Assembly (NCBI GenBank): GCA_018882745.1 | Contig: VFFD01000004.1 | Location: forward strand, 1-40,738 | DNA from: Candidatus Nanopelagicaceae bacterium | GTDB lineage: Bacteria > Actinomycetota > Actinomycetes > Nanopelagicales > Nanopelagicaceae | Reading direction: 5' to 3' | DNA: 40,738 nt | Shown: positions 14,741 to 23,513 of the stretch, piece by piece | How the letters are laid out: each line of letters opens with the position of its first letter | Position numbering within the stretch: position 1 is the first letter of the stretch | Translations under genes and position numbers: made by a program | The notes under the pieces: generated by a model | Databases searched by the model: none | Told to the model about the DNA's origin: nothing | Seen by the model: the letters and a program-made list of their open reading frames with translations, nothing else

Positions 14741-14815
14741 GCCTCCCTAGCTCAGTGGTAGAGCATCCGCCTTGTAAGCGGAAGGTCGTCAGTTCAATCC
14801 TGACGGGGGGCTCCA
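14741..14815 (+). tRNA. tRNA-Thr (anticodon UGU)
   Basis: A 75-nt cloverleaf can be folded by eye. The acceptor stem is GCCTCCC with GGGGGGC (one G-U pair); the D arm begins AGCTCAGTGGTAGAGC. The anticodon stem TCCGC/GCGGA closes the loop CTTGTAA, with anticodon TGT at 14773–14775 reading ACA. The T arm is TCAGTTCAATCCTGA. The 3' CCA is encoded at 14813–14815. It lies divergent from lacZ; the GMC oxidoreductase starts 23 bp downstream. Confidence 0.95.
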
Positions 14816-14838: not shown

Positions 14839-16533
14839 ATGTCGCAACGCCAACGTGACTTCGATGTAGTTGTCATCGGGTCTGGATTTGGTGGTTCGGT
14901 TGCAGCTCTACGATTAACTGAAAAAGGTTATCGCGTCGCAGTTTTAGAAGCTGGGCGACGTTTCAACGAAAAAGACTTTCCTAAAACTTCGTGGCGATTG
15001 TCGCGCTTTTTATTTATGCCACGTCTAGGACTTCGAGGCATTCAACGAATCCATGCGCTGCCTGATGTGCTGGTACTGGCTGGCGCTGGCGTTGGCGGTG
15101 GCTCACTTGTATACGCCAATACTTTGTATATGCCACCAGATTCGTATTTCAATGATGAACAATGGAAGAAAATTACAGATTGGAAATCAGAACTCACTCC
15201 GTGGTACGACCAAGCTTCGAGAATGTTAGGTGTTGCAGAAAATCCTTACTTTTCTCCCTCTGATCAAGCAATGAAAGAAGCAGCAGAGGCGATGGGTGTG
15301 GGACATACCTTCAAGATGGCGCCGCTCGGAGTTCACTTTGGACAGGGCCCCGGAGTTATCGAGAAAGATCCGTACTTTGGTGGAGTTGGTCCAGATCGCC
15401 ATGGTTGCCAACAATGCGGTGCATGCATGACGGGATGTAGATTCAATGCGAAAAATACTCTGCCCAAGAATTACTTGGGCTTAGCTGAGAAAGCGGGAGC
15501 GCAAGTATTTCCGGAAACGACGGTAGAGAAGATTGAAGAGCTCGCGGGTGGTGGTTGGAAGATTACCGCGCGGAAGAGTTCGGCATGGTTGGGTGGAAAG
15601 CGAGTATTTACTGCAGGCGAAGTTGTCGTGGCGGCGGGAACATATAACACCCAGAAATTGATGCATCGCATGAAGGGTTCTGGGACTCTTTCTAAATTGT
15701 CGCCAGCGCTAGGAAAATTATCCCGAACTAACTCAGAAGCGCTTACGGGTGCGATCATGCCTCATAAAAACGAGATTGATTTCTCAAGTGGTGCTGCAAT
15801 CACCTCATCATTCTTTCCAGATGAACATACCCACGTTGAGCCAGTCCGCTATGGAAAAGGCTCAAATTTCATGGGGTTGCTCCAGACTGTGATGACGGAT
15901 GGTGAACGCTCAAAAGATCGTAGAGCGATGTGGATAAAAACAGTGCTGCGCCATCCATCAATGTTTGTAAAGATCTTTGATGTACGTCGTTGGAGTGAAA
16001 GAACTGTTATCGCCTTGGTAATGCAGAATGTAGATTCAGCGCTCACTGTTCGAGGCAAGCGCGGAATGTTTGGATGGCGATTAACATCGAAGAATAATTC
16101 AGATAAACCCAATGCAACCTATATTCCAGCTGCAAATGAAGTGGTACGAAAGATTGCTGACAAATATGGTGGAACTCCAGGTGGACATATTGGCGATCTC
16201 GTAAGCGCGCCATTTACTGCCCACTTTGTGGGTGGATGTGTTATCGGCGAATCTGCTGAAACGGGAGTGATTGATGCGTATCACCGAGTGTGGAACTACC
16301 CAACACTTCATATTGTTGATGGATCAAGTGTGACCGCCAACCTAGGAGTAAATCCGTCATTAACGATTACTGCGCAAGCAGAACGGGCGTTTTCGTTCTG
16401 GCCTAACAAAGGTGAATCAGATACCAGGCCGGTTCAAGGAAGTGCTTACAAAAGAATTAACGCAGTAGCTCCACAGAGCCCATTTGTGCCAGAACACGCT
16501 TATGGAGCGTTACGCCTGCCCGCTCATTCTTAA
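14839..16533 (+). CDS. GMC family FAD oxidoreductase, ChoD/cholesterol-oxidase-like
   Basis: A 564-residue flavoprotein. The FAD-binding motif VVVIGSGFGGSVAA is at residues 10–23, followed by VLEAGRRF. The GMC signature region is LAGAGVGGGSLVYAN (80–94), and the C-terminus has AHFVGGCVIGES and a GVNPSLTI segment carrying the His/Asn catalytic positions of GMC enzymes. Residues 190–200 contain C-x2-C-x2-C-x3-C, a ferredoxin-like arrangement also remembered in M. tuberculosis ChoD (Rv3409c). The family oxidises alcohols; the substrate here is not evident, and ChoD proteins are poor guides to true cholesterol oxidase activity. The frame is open 84 bp upstream into the tRNA, so I use ATG 14839. 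No signal peptide. Its 3' end overlaps a convergent hydrolase by 24 bp. Confidence 0.85.
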   Translation: MSQRQRDFDVVVIGSGFGGSVAALRLTEKGYRVAVLEAGRRFNEKDFPKTSWRLSRFLFMPRLGLRGIQRIHALPDVLVLAGAGVGGGSLVYANTLYMPPDSYFNDEQWKKITDWKSELTPWYDQASRMLGVAENPYFSPSDQAMKEAAEAMGVGHTFKMAPLGVHFGQGPGVIEKDPYFGGVGPDRHGCQQCGACMTGCRFNAKNTLPKNYLGLAEKAGAQVFPETTVEKIEELAGGGWKITARKSSAWLGGKRVFTAGEVVVAAGTYNTQKLMHRMKGSGTLSKLSPALGKLSRTNSEALTGAIMPHKNEIDFSSGAAITSSFFPDEHTHVEPVRYGKGSNFMGLLQTVMTDGERSKDRRAMWIKTVLRHPSMFVKIFDVRRWSERTVIALVMQNVDSALTVRGKRGMFGWRLTSKNNSDKPNATYIPAANEVVRKIADKYGGTPGGHIGDLVSAPFTAHFVGGCVIGESAETGVIDAYHRVWNYPTLHIVDGSSVTANLGVNPSLTITAQAERAFSFWPNKGESDTRPVQGSAYKRINAVAPQSPFVPEHAYGALRLPAHS

Positions 16534-17304
16534 CGTTTCTTTCAATCTGCGATTGGGATTGAGGGTCATTGGAAAACTCGGATTTCGATAGAAATCTTGG
16601 AGAATTTTCTTCACTAATTCTGGTTTCTCTTTGAGAACCGCATGTGATGTACCTGGAACGATGGCAAGTTGGGCGTTAGGAATTGATTCGTAGAGAGAGA
16701 CAGTGTGATCGGTCGAAAAAGGTTCATCATCGCCTGCTAAAACTAAGGTTGGACACTTAATTTTCTTGAGTTGAGATTTTGTCATCCGCGGCTCAGAAGC
16801 CCAGACTTTATGAGCTTTATGGATGATCTCTACAAGTAATTCTCGGGGCTGGCCGGTGCGAGAGGCGAACTTATCTTTTGCTTCTTCTTCAACAGTGCCA
16901 TCGAAGATCTGGTGATTCAATCCGCAGTCGTAATGATAGTTCGCACCGATAGCTACGAGAGTTTTAACTAAATCGGGCCGTGCAATTGCAACCATCAATC
17001 CAATGATTCCACCATCACTATGCCCGATGATGTGGGCCGGTTTCTTTACGACATCTTCGAGATAAGCAATCGCTTCATCTCGTTGGAATTTAAAGTGGTA
17101 ATAGCCATCGCGAACTTTTGTCTTACCGTGTGCGGTCCGGTCATAACCGTAGATGCGGTGGGTACGCTTAACACTGGGAAGAATCTTTGGGGCAAAACTT
17201 TCTGTTGAACTTAAACCACCATGTAGAAGTAAGAGCGGTTCCTCTTTACGCTTTTTCCATTCTTGGTGCCAGATCTCATGGCCGCGAAGATTGATGAAAC
17301 TCAC
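16510..17304 (-). CDS. Alpha/beta hydrolase
   Basis: A 264-residue alpha/beta-hydrolase fold enzyme. The oxyanion-hole region is LLLLHGGLSS (24–33), the nucleophile elbow GHSDGG places Ser96, the acid is Asp192 or Asp193 in LAGDDEPFS, and His221 in PGTSHAVLKE completes the triad. No signal peptide. The substrate cannot be told from sequence. Its ATG overlaps the stop of the upstream NDH-2 gene by 4 bp, so the two are translationally coupled and probably one transcript from the ndh promoter. Whether the hydrolase has a respiratory role is unknown. Confidence 0.85.
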   Translation of the reverse strand: MSFINLRGHEIWHQEWKKRKEEPLLLLHGGLSSTESFAPKILPSVKRTHRIYGYDRTAHGKTKVRDGYYHFKFQRDEAIAYLEDVVKKPAHIIGHSDGGIIGLMVAIARPDLVKTLVAIGANYHYDCGLNHQIFDGTVEEEAKDKFASRTGQPRELLVEIIHKAHKVWASEPRMTKSQLKKIKCPTLVLAGDDEPFSTDHTVSLYESIPNAQLAIVPGTSHAVLKEKPELVKKILQDFYRNPSFPMTLNPNRRLKETLRMSGQA

Positions 17305-18524
17305 GAGATATCCATGATGTGGCGATTGCCGCGATCAAAGGTTAAGTAATTCCATGTCCAATCTGCCATGGTGCCGATTTTGTTACGCCCGCCAAGGAGA
17401 TAGAAGAGATGAAGCCATAACCACATATACCAAGCCAGTGCGCCACCTATGCGAATTCCTTTTACTTCGACGACCGCTTTATGGCGTCCAATAGTGGCCA
17501 TAGAGCCTTTATCTATATAGGAGAAAGTTTGTAGTGATTGGCCCTTACTTAATCGCTCAATCTGTTTCGCTACAAAGCGCGCTTGCTGCATTGCAACGGG
17601 AGCAACCATAGGAAGGAAGCGTCCATCTTTACCTTTAGCTCCTGCGATATCTCCGATGGCAAAAACATAGGGATAGTTGGTTACTTGCAGGGTTGGTTCG
17701 ACTGCAATGCGCCCCGATTCTTCAGGAATACTGAGTTTCTTCATGGCTGGCTCACCTTTAACTCCAGCAGCCCAGACGGTGACTTCAGATGGAATTGAGG
17801 TGCCATCAGCGAAAACAATCTGGCGCGGCTTCACCTCTTTGACGGCTGCATTTGTTAGAACTGTGACACCAAGTTTTTCTAAATCTTTTTTGGTGCGGGC
17901 AGATAACTTCGGAGAGAGTGAGGGAAGAACACGTTGGCCTGCTTCAATAAGGTAAACATCTATGTTCTTGGCGGCATCTTTGCTATCAGACGTAAGTGGA
18001 CCGCGCTTCAATTCTGCGATAGCACCAGCCATCTCAACACCTGTGGGACCGCCGCCCACAACTGCAATCGAAAACTTTGTGTCATCTTCAAAACGACAGA
18101 GATCCTCAAAGCGGCGCATAATTTCAGAGCGAATATTGAGCGCTTCATTGACAGTCTTCATACCGAGAGAATTTTCGGCCACGCCTTTAATCCCAAAATC
18201 GTTTGTCGCAGAGCCAAGCGCCACAATCAGATAATCGAAATCTAGAACTTCACTGGAATCTAACTTCACGCTTTTATTCTTATGATCAACTGAAATGGGC
18301 GATCCCATTCGAAATTTAACTTTTGTTTTGCGGAGCGCGCCGCGAATCGGATATGCGACATGGTCAGCTGCCAGGCCGGCGGTAGAGACTTGATAGAGAA
18401 GCGGGAGAAATGTCTGGAAATTGTGGCGATCTACTAAGGTCACATCAGCGATGCGATCTAGCGAGCGGGCAGCAGTTAAACCACCAAAACCTGCTCCGAG
18501 AATTACTACCTTTGGCCGCGACAT
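17301..18524 (-). CDS. ndh: Type II NADH:quinone oxidoreductase (NDH-2)
   Basis: A 407-residue single-subunit NADH dehydrogenase that passes electrons to menaquinone without pumping protons. The FAD-binding Rossmann motif VVILGAGFGGLTAAR is at residues 6–20 and the NADH-binding motif VVGGGPTGVEMAGAIAEL near 155–172. YVFAIGDIAG is the second FAD contact and MVAPVAMQQARFVAKQI lies near the quinone site. The C-terminal stretch GGALAWYMWLWLHLFYLLGGRNK is the membrane-associating segment typical of the family. The gene shares a 24-bp divergent promoter region with the SDR gene and overlaps the downstream hydrolase by 4 bp. Confidence 0.93.
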   Translation of the reverse strand: MSRPKVVILGAGFGGLTAARSLDRIADVTLVDRHNFQTFLPLLYQVSTAGLAADHVAYPIRGALRKTKVKFRMGSPISVDHKNKSVKLDSSEVLDFDYLIVALGSATNDFGIKGVAENSLGMKTVNEALNIRSEIMRRFEDLCRFEDDTKFSIAVVGGGPTGVEMAGAIAELKRGPLTSDSKDAAKNIDVYLIEAGQRVLPSLSPKLSARTKKDLEKLGVTVLTNAAVKEVKPRQIVFADGTSIPSEVTVWAAGVKGEPAMKKLSIPEESGRIAVEPTLQVTNYPYVFAIGDIAGAKGKDGRFLPMVAPVAMQQARFVAKQIERLSKGQSLQTFSYIDKGSMATIGRHKAVVEVKGIRIGGALAWYMWLWLHLFYLLGGRNKIGTMADWTWNYLTFDRGNRHIMDIS

Positions 18525-18531
18525 TCAACTA

Positions 18532-18541
18532 AGTCTACTGT
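18532..18541. promoter_or_regulatory. Overlapping divergent -10 elements for ndh and the SDR gene
   Basis: The 24-bp gap between the two start codons holds TAGACT on the minus strand (18532–18537, 7 bp before the ndh ATG) and TACTGT on the plus strand (18536–18541, 7 bp before the SDR ATG). The hexamers share 2 bp. Both transcripts would be leaderless, and polymerase should occupy only one promoter at a time. Confidence 0.55.
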
Positions 18542-18548
18542 TCTACCT

Positions 18549-20033
18549 ATGAATCAGGCGCGTCGGATACTTGTAACAGGAGCTTCCGGCTATGTCGGTG
18601 GCCGCTTAGTTCGAGCGCTTCTCAATGAAGATATGAAGGTGCGGATATTTGTCCGAGATAAATCAAAAGTATTAGGCCAACCATGGGTCAATGAAGTTGA
18701 GATTGCAGTTGGGAATGCCAATAGCTTTGACGAGACTCTGGCAGCACTTCAAGGTGTGCATACCGCTTTCTACTTGTTGCACTCCATCGGAGTTGGAACT
18801 CACTTTGATGAGATTGAAGCCGCGATGGCTGATAACTTCTCGCGCGCTGCTCAAGCGGCGGGCGTTTCCCAGATTGTTTATCTCGGTGGAATTGCAAATG
18901 ATTCAAAGCAAAGTAAGCACTTAGCTTCACGTGCTCGTACTGGTGAATTACTTGCATCGGGAAAAGTTTCGGTCATGGAATTGCGCGCCGGAATTATTAT
19001 TGGATCAGGCTCTGCATCATTTGAGATGCTCCGTCATTTAACGCATCGCTTACCTGTAATGACAACTCCAAAGTGGGTCACAAATTTGACGCACCCCATC
19101 GCGATTCGAGATGTGCTCTGGTATCTCACCAACGTTGCAAAGTTGAAAGAACCAGTTAAAGGAATCTTTGACATCGGCGGCCCAGAAATTCTGTCTTACG
19201 CTGACATGATGCAGAAATTCGCTGCATGTTCTGGTCTCCGTAAACGTTGGATCATTCGAGTTCCCGTCCTGACTCCGAAACTTTCAAGTTTGTGGATCGG
19301 TTTTGTGACTCCCGTTCCTACCGCGCTCGCGCGTCCTCTTGTGGGTTCACTCATCAATGAAACAGTGGCTGATCCAAAGAAGACGATTGATGCGATTGTT
19401 CCTAAACCACCTGAAGGACTCATTGATGTCACAACAGCTATTAATTTGGCCCTTTCGCGAACCTCAAATAATCAAGTAGAGACGCGCTGGTCTGATGCAA
19501 CTGCCCCAACCGCACCTTGGCAGAAAGCCCAGAGCGATCCCGATTGGGCAGGGGAAATGATCTTGAAAGATAAGCGCGAAACCCTGGCGGATGCGCCGAT
19601 TGATTGTGTCTGGAAATCCATCGAGCAAATCGGTGGCGAAACTGGTTGGTATGGCGCTGATTTCTTATGGTGGGCGCGCGGTGTTATCGATCGCTTGGTC
19701 GGCGGAGTTGGATTACGTCGTGGCCGTCGTGATCCTAAACATCTGCGAGTAGGTGACGGTTTAGATTTCTGGAGAGTTGAGCAAGTTGAAAAAGAAAAAG
19801 TTCTAAGACTCTACGCAGAGATGATTCTTCCCGGTAAAGCCTGGCTCGAATTCCGAATTCAACAAGAGGGTAATCAAGTACGTATCATCCAAGAAGCAAC
19901 GTTCTCGCCACGCGGTTTAGGTGGCCAGCTCTATTGGTATGCGATCTTGCCACTGCATGCATTTGTATTTCCAACCATGCTCCGCAATATTGTGAGAAGT
20001 TCAAAACGAAAGGCGCTCTTCGGCGATGCATGA
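18549..20033 (+). CDS. SDR/NAD(P)-binding protein fused to a DUF2867 domain
   Basis: A 494-residue two-domain protein. Residues 1–about 300 are an atypical short-chain dehydrogenase of the NmrA/YbjT kind: RILVTGASGYVGGRLVRALL (6–25) is the nucleotide-binding turn, IVYLGGIAND follows, and the classic YxxxK catalytic motif is not evident. Residues about 335–490 match DUF2867 (GWYGADFLWWARGVIDRLVGG, LRVGDGLDFWRVEQ, AWLEFRI, a C-terminal YWYAILPLHAFVFPTMLRNI). The C-terminal hydrophobic stretch may touch the membrane. Function is unknown; the combination occurs widely in actinobacteria. It overlaps the downstream decarboxylase by 8 bp and diverges from ndh. Confidence 0.82.
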   Translation: MNQARRILVTGASGYVGGRLVRALLNEDMKVRIFVRDKSKVLGQPWVNEVEIAVGNANSFDETLAALQGVHTAFYLLHSIGVGTHFDEIEAAMADNFSRAAQAAGVSQIVYLGGIANDSKQSKHLASRARTGELLASGKVSVMELRAGIIIGSGSASFEMLRHLTHRLPVMTTPKWVTNLTHPIAIRDVLWYLTNVAKLKEPVKGIFDIGGPEILSYADMMQKFAACSGLRKRWIIRVPVLTPKLSSLWIGFVTPVPTALARPLVGSLINETVADPKKTIDAIVPKPPEGLIDVTTAINLALSRTSNNQVETRWSDATAPTAPWQKAQSDPDWAGEMILKDKRETLADAPIDCVWKSIEQIGGETGWYGADFLWWARGVIDRLVGGVGLRRGRRDPKHLRVGDGLDFWRVEQVEKEKVLRLYAEMILPGKAWLEFRIQQEGNQVRIIQEATFSPRGLGGQLYWYAILPLHAFVFPTMLRNIVRSSKRKALFGDA

Positions 20034-21375
20034 GTTCGATGAAGAGATCGATGCTCTTGCGGCAAAGATTCTTGAGTATTCCTTAATTCGACTTAAGAAA
20101 GATCCACCGCTTGATGGTCCATGGACTTATGACGAGTTATATGCCGAAGTAGGCGAGACCATCACTGAAGGTGGTTTAGGCGGCGAGAAAGCCCTCGATT
20201 TATTCAAACATGTATTGGCACAAGCCTGTATCTCGACGGACCATCCACGGAATTTGGCATTCATTCCTTCTGCTCCCACAGAATCGTCCAACTTATTTGA
20301 TCTCGTGGTCGGTGCATCTTCTTTATATGGCGGTTCATGGCTTGAGGGCGCTGGTGCAGTATTTGCAGAGAATCAAGCGCTGCGGTGGCTTAGTAATTTA
20401 GCGGGGCTGCCACAGACATCTGGCGGAGTATTTGTGCAAGGTGGAACAGTCGGAAATCTCTCTGCACTTGTTGCTGCGCGCCATGATGCGCGAAGGAAGT
20501 TTCCGGGAGTTAAGCGCTGGGTGATCGCATACTCGAATGAAGCCCATTCTTCAATCAAGTCTGCAGCAGATGTGATGGATGTTGAGATACTTGCAGTTCC
20601 CACCGATAAGAACCATAGATTACAAGGCAGCACAGTTGCATTTGAAGCCGATAAATACCACCAACAAAATCCAGACCATCGCATCTTTGCAATTGTTGCG
20701 ACAGCAGGCACCACAAACCTTGGAATTATTGATGATCTAGAAGGCATTGGGAAAGCTGCTAATGATCGAGGGATTTGGTATCACGTCGATGGCGCATATG
20801 GTTTGGCAGCGCTTGCCTCACCGCGTTCGAGACCGCTATTTAAAGGCGTTGAATTATGCGATTCATTTATCGTTGATCCACATAAGTGGCTTTTTGCACC
20901 ATTTGATGCCTGCGCTCTTATTTATCGCAATCCGGAAGTTGCTCGCAAAGCCCATACTCAGTATGCAGGATATTTAGCAGCGTTGGAATCAGGGGAGTGG
21001 AATCCTTCTGATTATGCAATTCATTTGACACGTCGCGTTCGCGGTTTACCTTTCTGGTTTTCTCTTGCCGCACATGGCACTAAGAAATATGCCGAGTCGA
21101 TGGATAAGACGATGGATACTGCGCGCGAAACTGCAGAACTCATCAAGGAGCATCCCAATCTGGAATTACTGATGGAACCAGAACTTTCGATAGTTGCATT
21201 CACTCGAATTGCTTGGACTCAATCTGATTACCAAAAATGGAGCGATAAGTTACTCAATGATCAGATTGGATTTGTCACGCCTTCCTCACATGAAGGAAAG
21301 CCGATCTTGCGCTTTGCGATTGTGAATCCGTGGACCTCGATCACTGATATCAAAGTAATTTTGGCCACCCTTTAA
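20026..21375 (+). CDS. PLP-dependent group II amino acid decarboxylase
   Basis: A 449-residue fold type I PLP enzyme of the glutamate/aromatic-L-amino-acid decarboxylase group. The PLP-stacking His is in SNEAHSS (His174), the pyridine-N-binding Asp in HVDGAYG (Asp255) and the Schiff-base lysine in VDPHKWLF (Lys287). FVQGGTVGNLSAL is the phosphate-binding region. It decarboxylates an amino acid to an amine; substrate is not predictable by eye (candidates include aromatic amino acids, glutamate and 2,4-diaminobutyrate). No transporter or antiporter is adjacent that would point to acid resistance. It begins inside the last 8 bp of the SDR-DUF2867 gene and is probably translated with it. Confidence 0.87.
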   Translation: MHEFDEEIDALAAKILEYSLIRLKKDPPLDGPWTYDELYAEVGETITEGGLGGEKALDLFKHVLAQACISTDHPRNLAFIPSAPTESSNLFDLVVGASSLYGGSWLEGAGAVFAENQALRWLSNLAGLPQTSGGVFVQGGTVGNLSALVAARHDARRKFPGVKRWVIAYSNEAHSSIKSAADVMDVEILAVPTDKNHRLQGSTVAFEADKYHQQNPDHRIFAIVATAGTTNLGIIDDLEGIGKAANDRGIWYHVDGAYGLAALASPRSRPLFKGVELCDSFIVDPHKWLFAPFDACALIYRNPEVARKAHTQYAGYLAALESGEWNPSDYAIHLTRRVRGLPFWFSLAAHGTKKYAESMDKTMDTARETAELIKEHPNLELLMEPELSIVAFTRIAWTQSDYQKWSDKLLNDQIGFVTPSSHEGKPILRFAIVNPWTSITDIKVILATL

Positions 21376-21413
21376 ATCCGCACTTTTTGCCAAATCTCTA
21401 GTTCAATAGCGCT

Positions 21414-21671
21414 ATGGAAGAAACCTCGGTCCGCCTCGAGACGCACTTAAGCGACCTCGAAGTCCGCATTCTTGATTTCGAGCGCCAATGGTGGAAGTAC
21501 GCAGGAGTGAAGGACTCGGCAATTCGGGAACTTTTTAATCTTTCGGCGAAGCAGTACTACGAACTTCTCAACAACCTGATTGATCGCCCCGATGCACTGG
21601 CGGCCTCCCCGCTCCTTATCAAGCGCCTGCGTCGTCTCCGCGAAGCCCGCGTCTCCTCACGTTCGCTCTAA
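21414..21671 (+). CDS. DUF3263 family protein
   Basis: An 85-residue protein found only in actinobacteria to my knowledge. It shows the family pattern: ILDFERQWWKYAGVKDSAIRELFNLSAKQYYELLNNLIDRPDAL then PLLIKRLRRLREAR. The middle reads like a small helix-turn-helix (sigma-70-region-like) in which AIRELFNLSAKQYYELLNNL could be the DNA-contacting helices, and the end is basic. No function is established. Equivalent genes lie near groEL in mycobacteria (Rv0430 close to Rv0440), as here. Base composition from the middle of this gene through the groEL leader is visibly more GC-rich than the surroundings. Confidence 0.85.
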   Translation: MEETSVRLETHLSDLEVRILDFERQWWKYAGVKDSAIRELFNLSAKQYYELLNNLIDRPDALAASPLLIKRLRRLREARVSSRSL

Positions 21672-21693
21672 GCCGCCTCCGACCGACCCCACT

Positions 21694-21766
21694 CCGAAAT
21701 CTCGAGCCCCTTCGGCGAAGGGAAAAGCCAAAACTGTAGCTTCGCCTCTCGGGTTCTCGATTTCGG
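21694..21766. other. GC-rich nested inverted repeats between DUF3263 and groEL
   Basis: Outer arms at 21694–21709 and 21751–21766 pair at 13 of 16 positions (CCGAAATCTCGAGCCC against GGGTTCTCGATTTCGG). Within lies a perfect hairpin, CCCTTC-GGC-GAAGGG, at 21708–21722. There is no U-tract, so a simple intrinsic terminator is not clear; it could end the DUF3263 transcript or be a small structured RNA. Confidence 0.4.
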
Positions 21767-21791
21767 TCGAGCGCGAAAGGAATCCTCGGAT

Positions 21792-21820
21792 TTGAGAACG
21801 GGAATAGTCGCCCCTAGGCT
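21792..21820 (+). promoter_or_regulatory. groEL promoter
   Basis: TTGAGA (21792–21797), 17 bp, then TAGGCT (21815–21820). The predicted start near 21826 coincides with the first bases of the CIRCE element. Confidence 0.7.
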
Positions 21821-21825
21821 AGGCG

Positions 21826-21852
21826 TTAGCACTCGCCGGGCGAGAGTGATAA
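21826..21852. promoter_or_regulatory. CIRCE element (HrcA operator)
   Basis: TTAGCACTC-N9-GAGTGATAA matches the CIRCE consensus TTAGCACTC-N9-GAGTGCTAA with one mismatch in the right arm. It overlaps the expected transcription start of groEL, where HrcA would block initiation until heat stress. Confidence 0.93.
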
Positions 21853-21878
21853 GTCGCCCGAACCACCTCTAGATATAG

Positions 21879-23513
<1,635 letters not shown>

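Follow-up and report, generated by a model that had tools for sequence, protein, structure and literature searches.

Opposed −10-like hexamers sharing a TA in the 24-bp gap between ndh and an SDR-DUF2867 gene are conserved in the Nanopelagicaceae and likely form a bidirectional promoter

The DNA analysed here (the window, 40,738 nucleotides) is one entire contig from a 1.22-Mb genome of the Nanopelagicaceae, which we take to be acI-type freshwater actinobacteria. Within it, ndh and a gene for a protein with SDR-type NAD(P)-binding and DUF2867 domains (the SDR gene) diverge from an intergenic gap of 24 bp (18525-18548, sequence TCAACTAAGTCTACTGTTCTACCT). The ndh assignment rests on its Pfam domains, and the NCBIfam matches listed for the protein all fall under their cut-offs. 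The neighbouring alpha/beta hydrolase gene is probably on one transcript with ndh, and the decarboxylase family gene is probably on one transcript with the SDR gene (Table 1). Further out, a tRNA-Thr (14741-14815) lies ahead of a GMC oxidoreductase gene whose listed GTG start (14755) falls within the tRNA; an ATG at 14839 with a leaderless-type upstream signal (TACCCT plus 6 nt) is the likelier start. On the other side, a DUF3263 protein (21414-21671) scored 114 bits against the model of the nucleoid-associated protein NapA, short of the 160-bit cut-off, and the ORF downstream of its gene (21894-23513) resembles a GroEL chaperonin on visual inspection.

The gap contains two opposed −10-like hexamers, TAGACT on the ndh side and TACTGT on the SDR side. 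The original prediction placed them 7 bp from their own start codons with an overlap of 2 bp, and both points are correct: the spacing holds on both strands and the overlap is the TA at 18536-18537. Opposite-strand −10 elements that overlap with key positions in common are the mark of a bidirectional promoter, and the shared TA provides them. Both start codons agree with alignments to relatives, the exception being the ndh ATG, which lies one codon inward in 10 of the 24 loci of the genus.

Table 1. Features of the ndh/SDR region (window coordinates) and of the other divergent pairs with a shared TA
Feature	Coordinates	Strand	Basis or remark
Alpha/beta hydrolase	16510..17304	-	Pfam; start overlaps ndh end by 4 bp
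ndh, type II NADH dehydrogenase-like	17301..18524	-	Pfam Pyr_redox_2 + NDH2_C
Spacer, 7 nt, TAGACT to ndh ATG (18524-18522)	18525..18531	-	
TAGACT, -10-like hexamer of ndh	18532..18537 (read 18537 down to 18532)	-	Invariant in 87/87 loci
Shared-TA core ANNNTANNNT (AGTCTACTGT), conserved footprint	18532..18541	both	Exactly once in 87/87 loci
TA common to both hexamers	18536..18537	both	Read from sequence
TACTGT, -10-like hexamer of the SDR gene	18536..18541	+	TANNNT kept in 87/87 loci
Spacer, 7 nt, TACTGT to SDR ATG (18549-18551)	18542..18548	+	
SDR-type NAD(P)-binding + DUF2867 protein	18549..20033	+	Pfam
Pyridoxal-dependent decarboxylase family protein	20026..21375	+	Pfam; start overlaps SDR end by 8 bp
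TA-sharing pairs in the window's genome	Window, L048, L178, L179, L186		
glgA/glgC: glycogen synthase + glucose-1-phosphate adenylyltransferase	L178:13712-13734	divergent	22-bp gap, ACACCAAGAGTATCGTTAGGGC
EF-Tu-type GTP-binding-domain protein + phosphatidylinositol phosphate synthase	L048:1715-1738	divergent	
PIG-L-family protein + UvrD/PcrA-type helicase			Pfam, partly NCBIfam
Polyprenyl synthetase + methylenetetrahydrofolate reductase			Pfam, partly NCBIfam

We scored TANNNT hexamers ahead of start codons in 551 kb of the same genome (the window plus 38 stretches, 45% of the genome), with genes called by a crude longest-ORF rule of at least 100 codons. A TANNNT ended 6–7 nt ahead of 87 of the 462 usable first ATGs, versus about 1% of 2506 internal in-frame ATGs. 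The distance was 6 nt in 66 cases and 7 nt in 21, with a small shoulder at 8–9 nt; the internal ATGs had 0.2% and 0.9% at 6 and 7 nt. The same peak was present in another genus (G085, genus g17; 400 kb), where the hexamer stood at 6 nt for 44 of 346 first ATGs and at 7 nt for 24 of 346. Among 87 upstream regions from 306 kb, chosen for a TANNNT 6–7 nt before ATG or GTG, the commonest hexamers were TAGGCT (7/87), TAGACT (5/87), TAGATT, and TAACCT; a strong −35 column was absent. The gap thus shows what defines a leaderless promoter of the TANNNT type: the hexamer stands 6–7 nt from the start codon and is enriched there genome-wide. Judged from this enrichment, TANNNT at that distance is a general leaderless signal of the window's genome. 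Because the signal sits at 6–7 nt, the two 7-nt spacers suggest that transcription of ndh and of the SDR gene begins at or near the respective ATG.

A simple sigma-70 scan of 16000-22500 returned four sites, none inside the gap. A promoter with a −35 element in the gap was rejected on this result and on the missing −35 column in the 87 upstream regions.

Actinobacterial leaderless promoters, as portrayed in parts of two published accounts (PMC3160421, PMC3898074), agree with what we see in the window's genome. Part of the second account describes leaderless messages as almost absent from respiration and energy genes in M. tuberculosis (PMC3898074); the leaderless reading of ndh is weakened by this, because ndh belongs to that class. 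A literature search found no paper on leaderless transcription in Nanopelagicales or Planktophila.

We surveyed the locus across the family: 187 genomes had an SDR match, and 94 loci were taken from 93 of them. One locus was cut by a contig end, six had no ndh nearby, and in 87 ndh was divergent from the SDR gene; no locus was dropped for lacking AGTCTANNNT. AGTCTANNNT occurred exactly once between the two genes in all 87 divergent loci, which span 13 genera. AGTCTA and the T that closes the plus hexamer were 100% identical, whereas the flanking columns reached 28–79%; the loci are akin to one another (24 from one genus, 20 from another) and do not count as independent trials. The middle bases of the plus hexamer vary, with 12 different TANNNT hexamers among the 87 loci. 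The GTC of AGTCTA (18532-18537) is invariant throughout, although TANNNT leaves these three bases free. Since the core is kept in the 87 loci while its flanks vary, the shared-TA arrangement beside ndh is, by this comparison, not a product of chance.

The distances to the start codons are less constant. An in-frame SDR start lies 6–8 nt from the core in 84 of the 87 loci (exceptions: L008, L033, and L068). An in-frame ndh start lies at 6–7 nt in 50 loci; the first one is at 10 nt in 10 loci and at 12–57 nt in 27. In 49 of the 87, a start within the leaderless range is present for each of the two genes. Within the genus, the gap between start codons is 23–24 bp in 13 of the 24 loci, 27 bp in 10, and ambiguous in L008, where about 10 bp are missing around an uncertain SDR start (an assembly error or a true loss). 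The ten longer gaps (L009-L015, L020, L026, L028) are those with the ndh ATG one codon inward, 10 nt from TAGACT, a position that would imply either that the start site has shifted or that there is a short leader. The footprint is retained in other genera whose gaps are longer (about 50–110 bp to the aligned N-termini). In four loci of genus g16 with long ndh leaders (L085-L088), a TTTSAASTTTC-like stretch stands about 30 bp before the shared TA.

From these distances (10 nt in 10 of the 24 genus loci, 12–57 nt in 27 of the 87 family loci), ndh appears often not to be strictly leaderless. Of the 24-bp gap, the core is conserved, kept in 24/24 genus and 87/87 family loci, but the exact length is not (27 bp in ten loci). 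Close relatives with a longer gap that had lost the shared hexamers, named in advance as the finding that would count against the original prediction, did not turn up among the 24 genus loci. The shared core is, on these alignments, steadier than either the gap length or the strict leaderlessness of ndh, and geometry, genome-wide signal, and conservation in relatives together support the proposal of two interlocked leaderless-type promoters.

We examined loci in which the two genes are apart. In both genomes of genus g6 with ndh away from the SDR gene (L123, L125), TAGACT still stands 7 nt before the ndh ATG, and AGTCTANNNT was not found within 60 nt of the SDR gene in either genome. For this reason TAGACT and the plus hexamer look like separate, gene-owned elements, the −10 of ndh and the −10 of the SDR gene, that share a TA. 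In all, there were four good matches to ndh apart from the SDR gene: TAGACT lies 7 nt before ndh in two and is absent in the other two (L120, L124); a fifth match (L126), only 35% identical and also without TAGACT, was left out. Conversely, among the six genomes with the SDR gene away from ndh, AGTCTANNNT is near the SDR start in one (L065) and absent in five. Outside the family, we took 15 SDR loci (L157-L171; only 274 nt upstream in L160) from 168 genomes with an SDR match: none had ndh adjoining the SDR gene or AGTCTANNNT upstream.

The interlocking is not peculiar to the ndh/SDR gap. The 551 kb contain 62 divergent gene pairs, of which 22 have TANNNT on both sides and 10 of these a gap of at most 31 bp. 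For each pair we used the combination of starts with the most signals among the first six ATG/GTG of each gene, and the same freedom was given to 11 control settings of pattern or distance; each control gave 0 of 62 pairs in gaps of at most 31 bp. The contrast shrinks once gaps of any length are admitted (22 pairs versus 1 to 14 in the controls), and a single overlapping pair, with a longer gap, came from one control setting. A 306-kb subset of the same DNA had 40 pairs, 15 of them with both signals and 7 of these in gaps of at most 31 bp (0 in each of the 11 controls). Five of the 10 tight pairs overlap by exactly TA (Table 1), one has the form TANNNTA (L038), and four do not overlap. The products of the four TA-sharing pairs outside the window were identified with Pfam and, for some, NCBIfam. 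G085 (400 kb) contributed 40 divergent pairs, 16 of them with a signal on each side (controls: 1 to 6); tight pairs were rarer than in the window's genome, with two in gaps of at most 31 bp and one overlapping. That sole overlapping pair (L202:19097-19118) encodes, by eye, the same two proteins as the L048 pair, and the two pairs from different genera look orthologous on this visual comparison only.

We also counted ATG-to-ATG shared-TA sites family-wide, a count that is only partly clean and whose totals were summed by hand. Spacings of 6/6 gave 57 sites versus 17 for the reversed pattern (61 genomes), and spacings of 7/7 gave 45 versus 28, with the ndh/SDR site accounting for seven of the 45; the distance control, 10/10, gave 16 versus 29. 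The corresponding figures for the window's own genome were 0 versus 1 at 6/6 and, both strands combined, 2 versus 1 at 6/7.

The reading best supported by the sequence, the spacing, the conservation, the genome-wide leaderless-type signal, and the recurrence of the layout is that the gap is a bidirectional promoter, and we regard the following form of it as quite likely. Two opposite-strand TANNNT −10 elements would use one TA, and the housekeeping sigma would recognise both. RNA polymerase would bind and open the promoter in one direction at a time, and the messages of ndh and the SDR gene, both leaderless, would begin at or next to their start codons. Each side would owe its output chiefly to its own −10 hexamer, and at ordinary rates of firing the two would probably leave each other undisturbed, with weak interference.

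Three other explanations bear on this reading. The original prediction held that NDH-2 and the SDR/decarboxylase pair may be reciprocally expressed because polymerase competition alone, with no regulator, makes them alternate. Two holoenzymes are unable to open the same TA simultaneously, the TA overlap is conserved, and part of a published account treats steric exclusion at bidirectional promoters as established (PMC12825309). However, that account also describes five E. coli bidirectional promoters with little or no competition at basal activity: firing is too rare for it, and weakening one side barely affects the other, although the partner is repressed once one side is activated (PMC12825309). 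The layout also occurs at glgA/glgC, whose products act in consecutive steps of one pathway; opposition is not expected there, an argument against seeing the layout as a device that opposes its two genes. Moreover, the ndh start lies well off the core in 27 of the 87 loci, so that coupling of the two leaderless starts is not what is conserved. Expression that alternates without any regulator is thus unsupported, and we give this explanation very little weight: on the sequence, a two-way promoter is likely and such a switch unlikely.

The conserved GTC calls for a different consideration. Because it is invariant and not needed for plain TANNNT recognition, something beyond a generic −10 may act; this invariance, not fully explained, could come from a strong −10 or from some further factor that binds here. 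It seems improbable that AGTCTANNNT is in addition a binding site through which a dedicated sigma factor or some regulatory protein controls the two genes jointly. Such a site would fit the contrast between AGTCTA, kept where TANNNT allows change, and the plus hexamer, whose middle bases do change; it would also fit the retention of AGTCTANNNT where ndh starts 12–57 nt away and at L065, where ndh is not beside the SDR gene. Yet five of the six genomes without ndh nearby have no AGTCTANNNT near the SDR start, and TAGACT, one of the commoner leaderless-type −10 hexamers, may just be a strong −10. A regulon sharing AGTCTANNNT 6–7 nt before ATG was searched for and rejected, the ndh/SDR site being the only one in the genome (ATG starts searched, GTG not). 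The overlap may reflect the economy of a streamlined genome, with no coupling function. This explanation is compatible with a bidirectional promoter and concerns why the TA is shared; we hold it to be a serious possibility, slightly short of an even call. By our own counting, sharing a TA lowers the number of fixed bases from six to four, so that the arrangement arises and persists readily in tight gaps, and six of the 10 tight pairs (five TA-sharing, one TANNNTA) have one of the two base-saving geometries, the other four being non-overlapping. But the footprint survives in genera with gaps of about 50–110 bp, and economy alone therefore does not explain its retention.

The bidirectional promoter might be part of something wider, a doubtful extension that we offer as speculation: a standard Nanopelagicaceae module of 22–25 bp (start codon, 6/7 nt, ANNNTANNNT, 6/7 nt, start codon) could act as a hard-wired two-way promoter in streamlined genomes, with the ratio or noise of the paired genes governed by one-at-a-time occupancy and no dedicated regulator involved; the ndh/SDR copy would then have persisted for most of the history of the family. 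The gap is about the shortest possible control region for two genes, its footprint is conserved base by base across 13 genera, and its layout recurs in the genome. It therefore provides a clean natural setting in which to ask whether bacteria with streamlined genomes draw any regulatory information from polymerase exclusion at a shared −10; should there be none, the gap shows how far promoter economy can go.

The conserved and recurrent arrangement is a real feature that, by its sequence, would belong to the already known bidirectional promoters, with both sides probably leaderless. Its individual halves resemble actinobacterial leaderless promoters (TANNNT about 12 bp ahead of the start codon) in hexamer, in spacing, and in the lack of a visible −35 consensus, and differ from them in that two such promoters interlock. 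Bacterial bidirectional promoters, as described by Warman, Grainger, and colleagues in terms of −10 symmetry, have the same overlapping −10 elements in a pseudo-symmetric core that polymerase can engage either way; parts of two accounts put their divergent start sites 7–25 bp apart, with polymerase in one orientation at a time (PMC12825309, PMC10268837). A shared TA corresponds, by our arithmetic, to the published 23-bp class; here the predicted start-to-start distance, taken from the A of each ATG, reaches 25 bp because the spacers are 7 nt, which puts it at the top of the published range. The commonest published spacing is 18 bp, whereas the TA-sharing form leads among the tight gaps here (5/10), and both messages would be leaderless. 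In M. tuberculosis, closely juxtaposed divergent promoters are called common in a figure legend (PMC3898074). The same source, in part, describes prpD/Rv1129c as divergent neighbours that are both leaderless, like the pair proposed here; they differ in that starvation reportedly raises the two genes together (PMC3898074).
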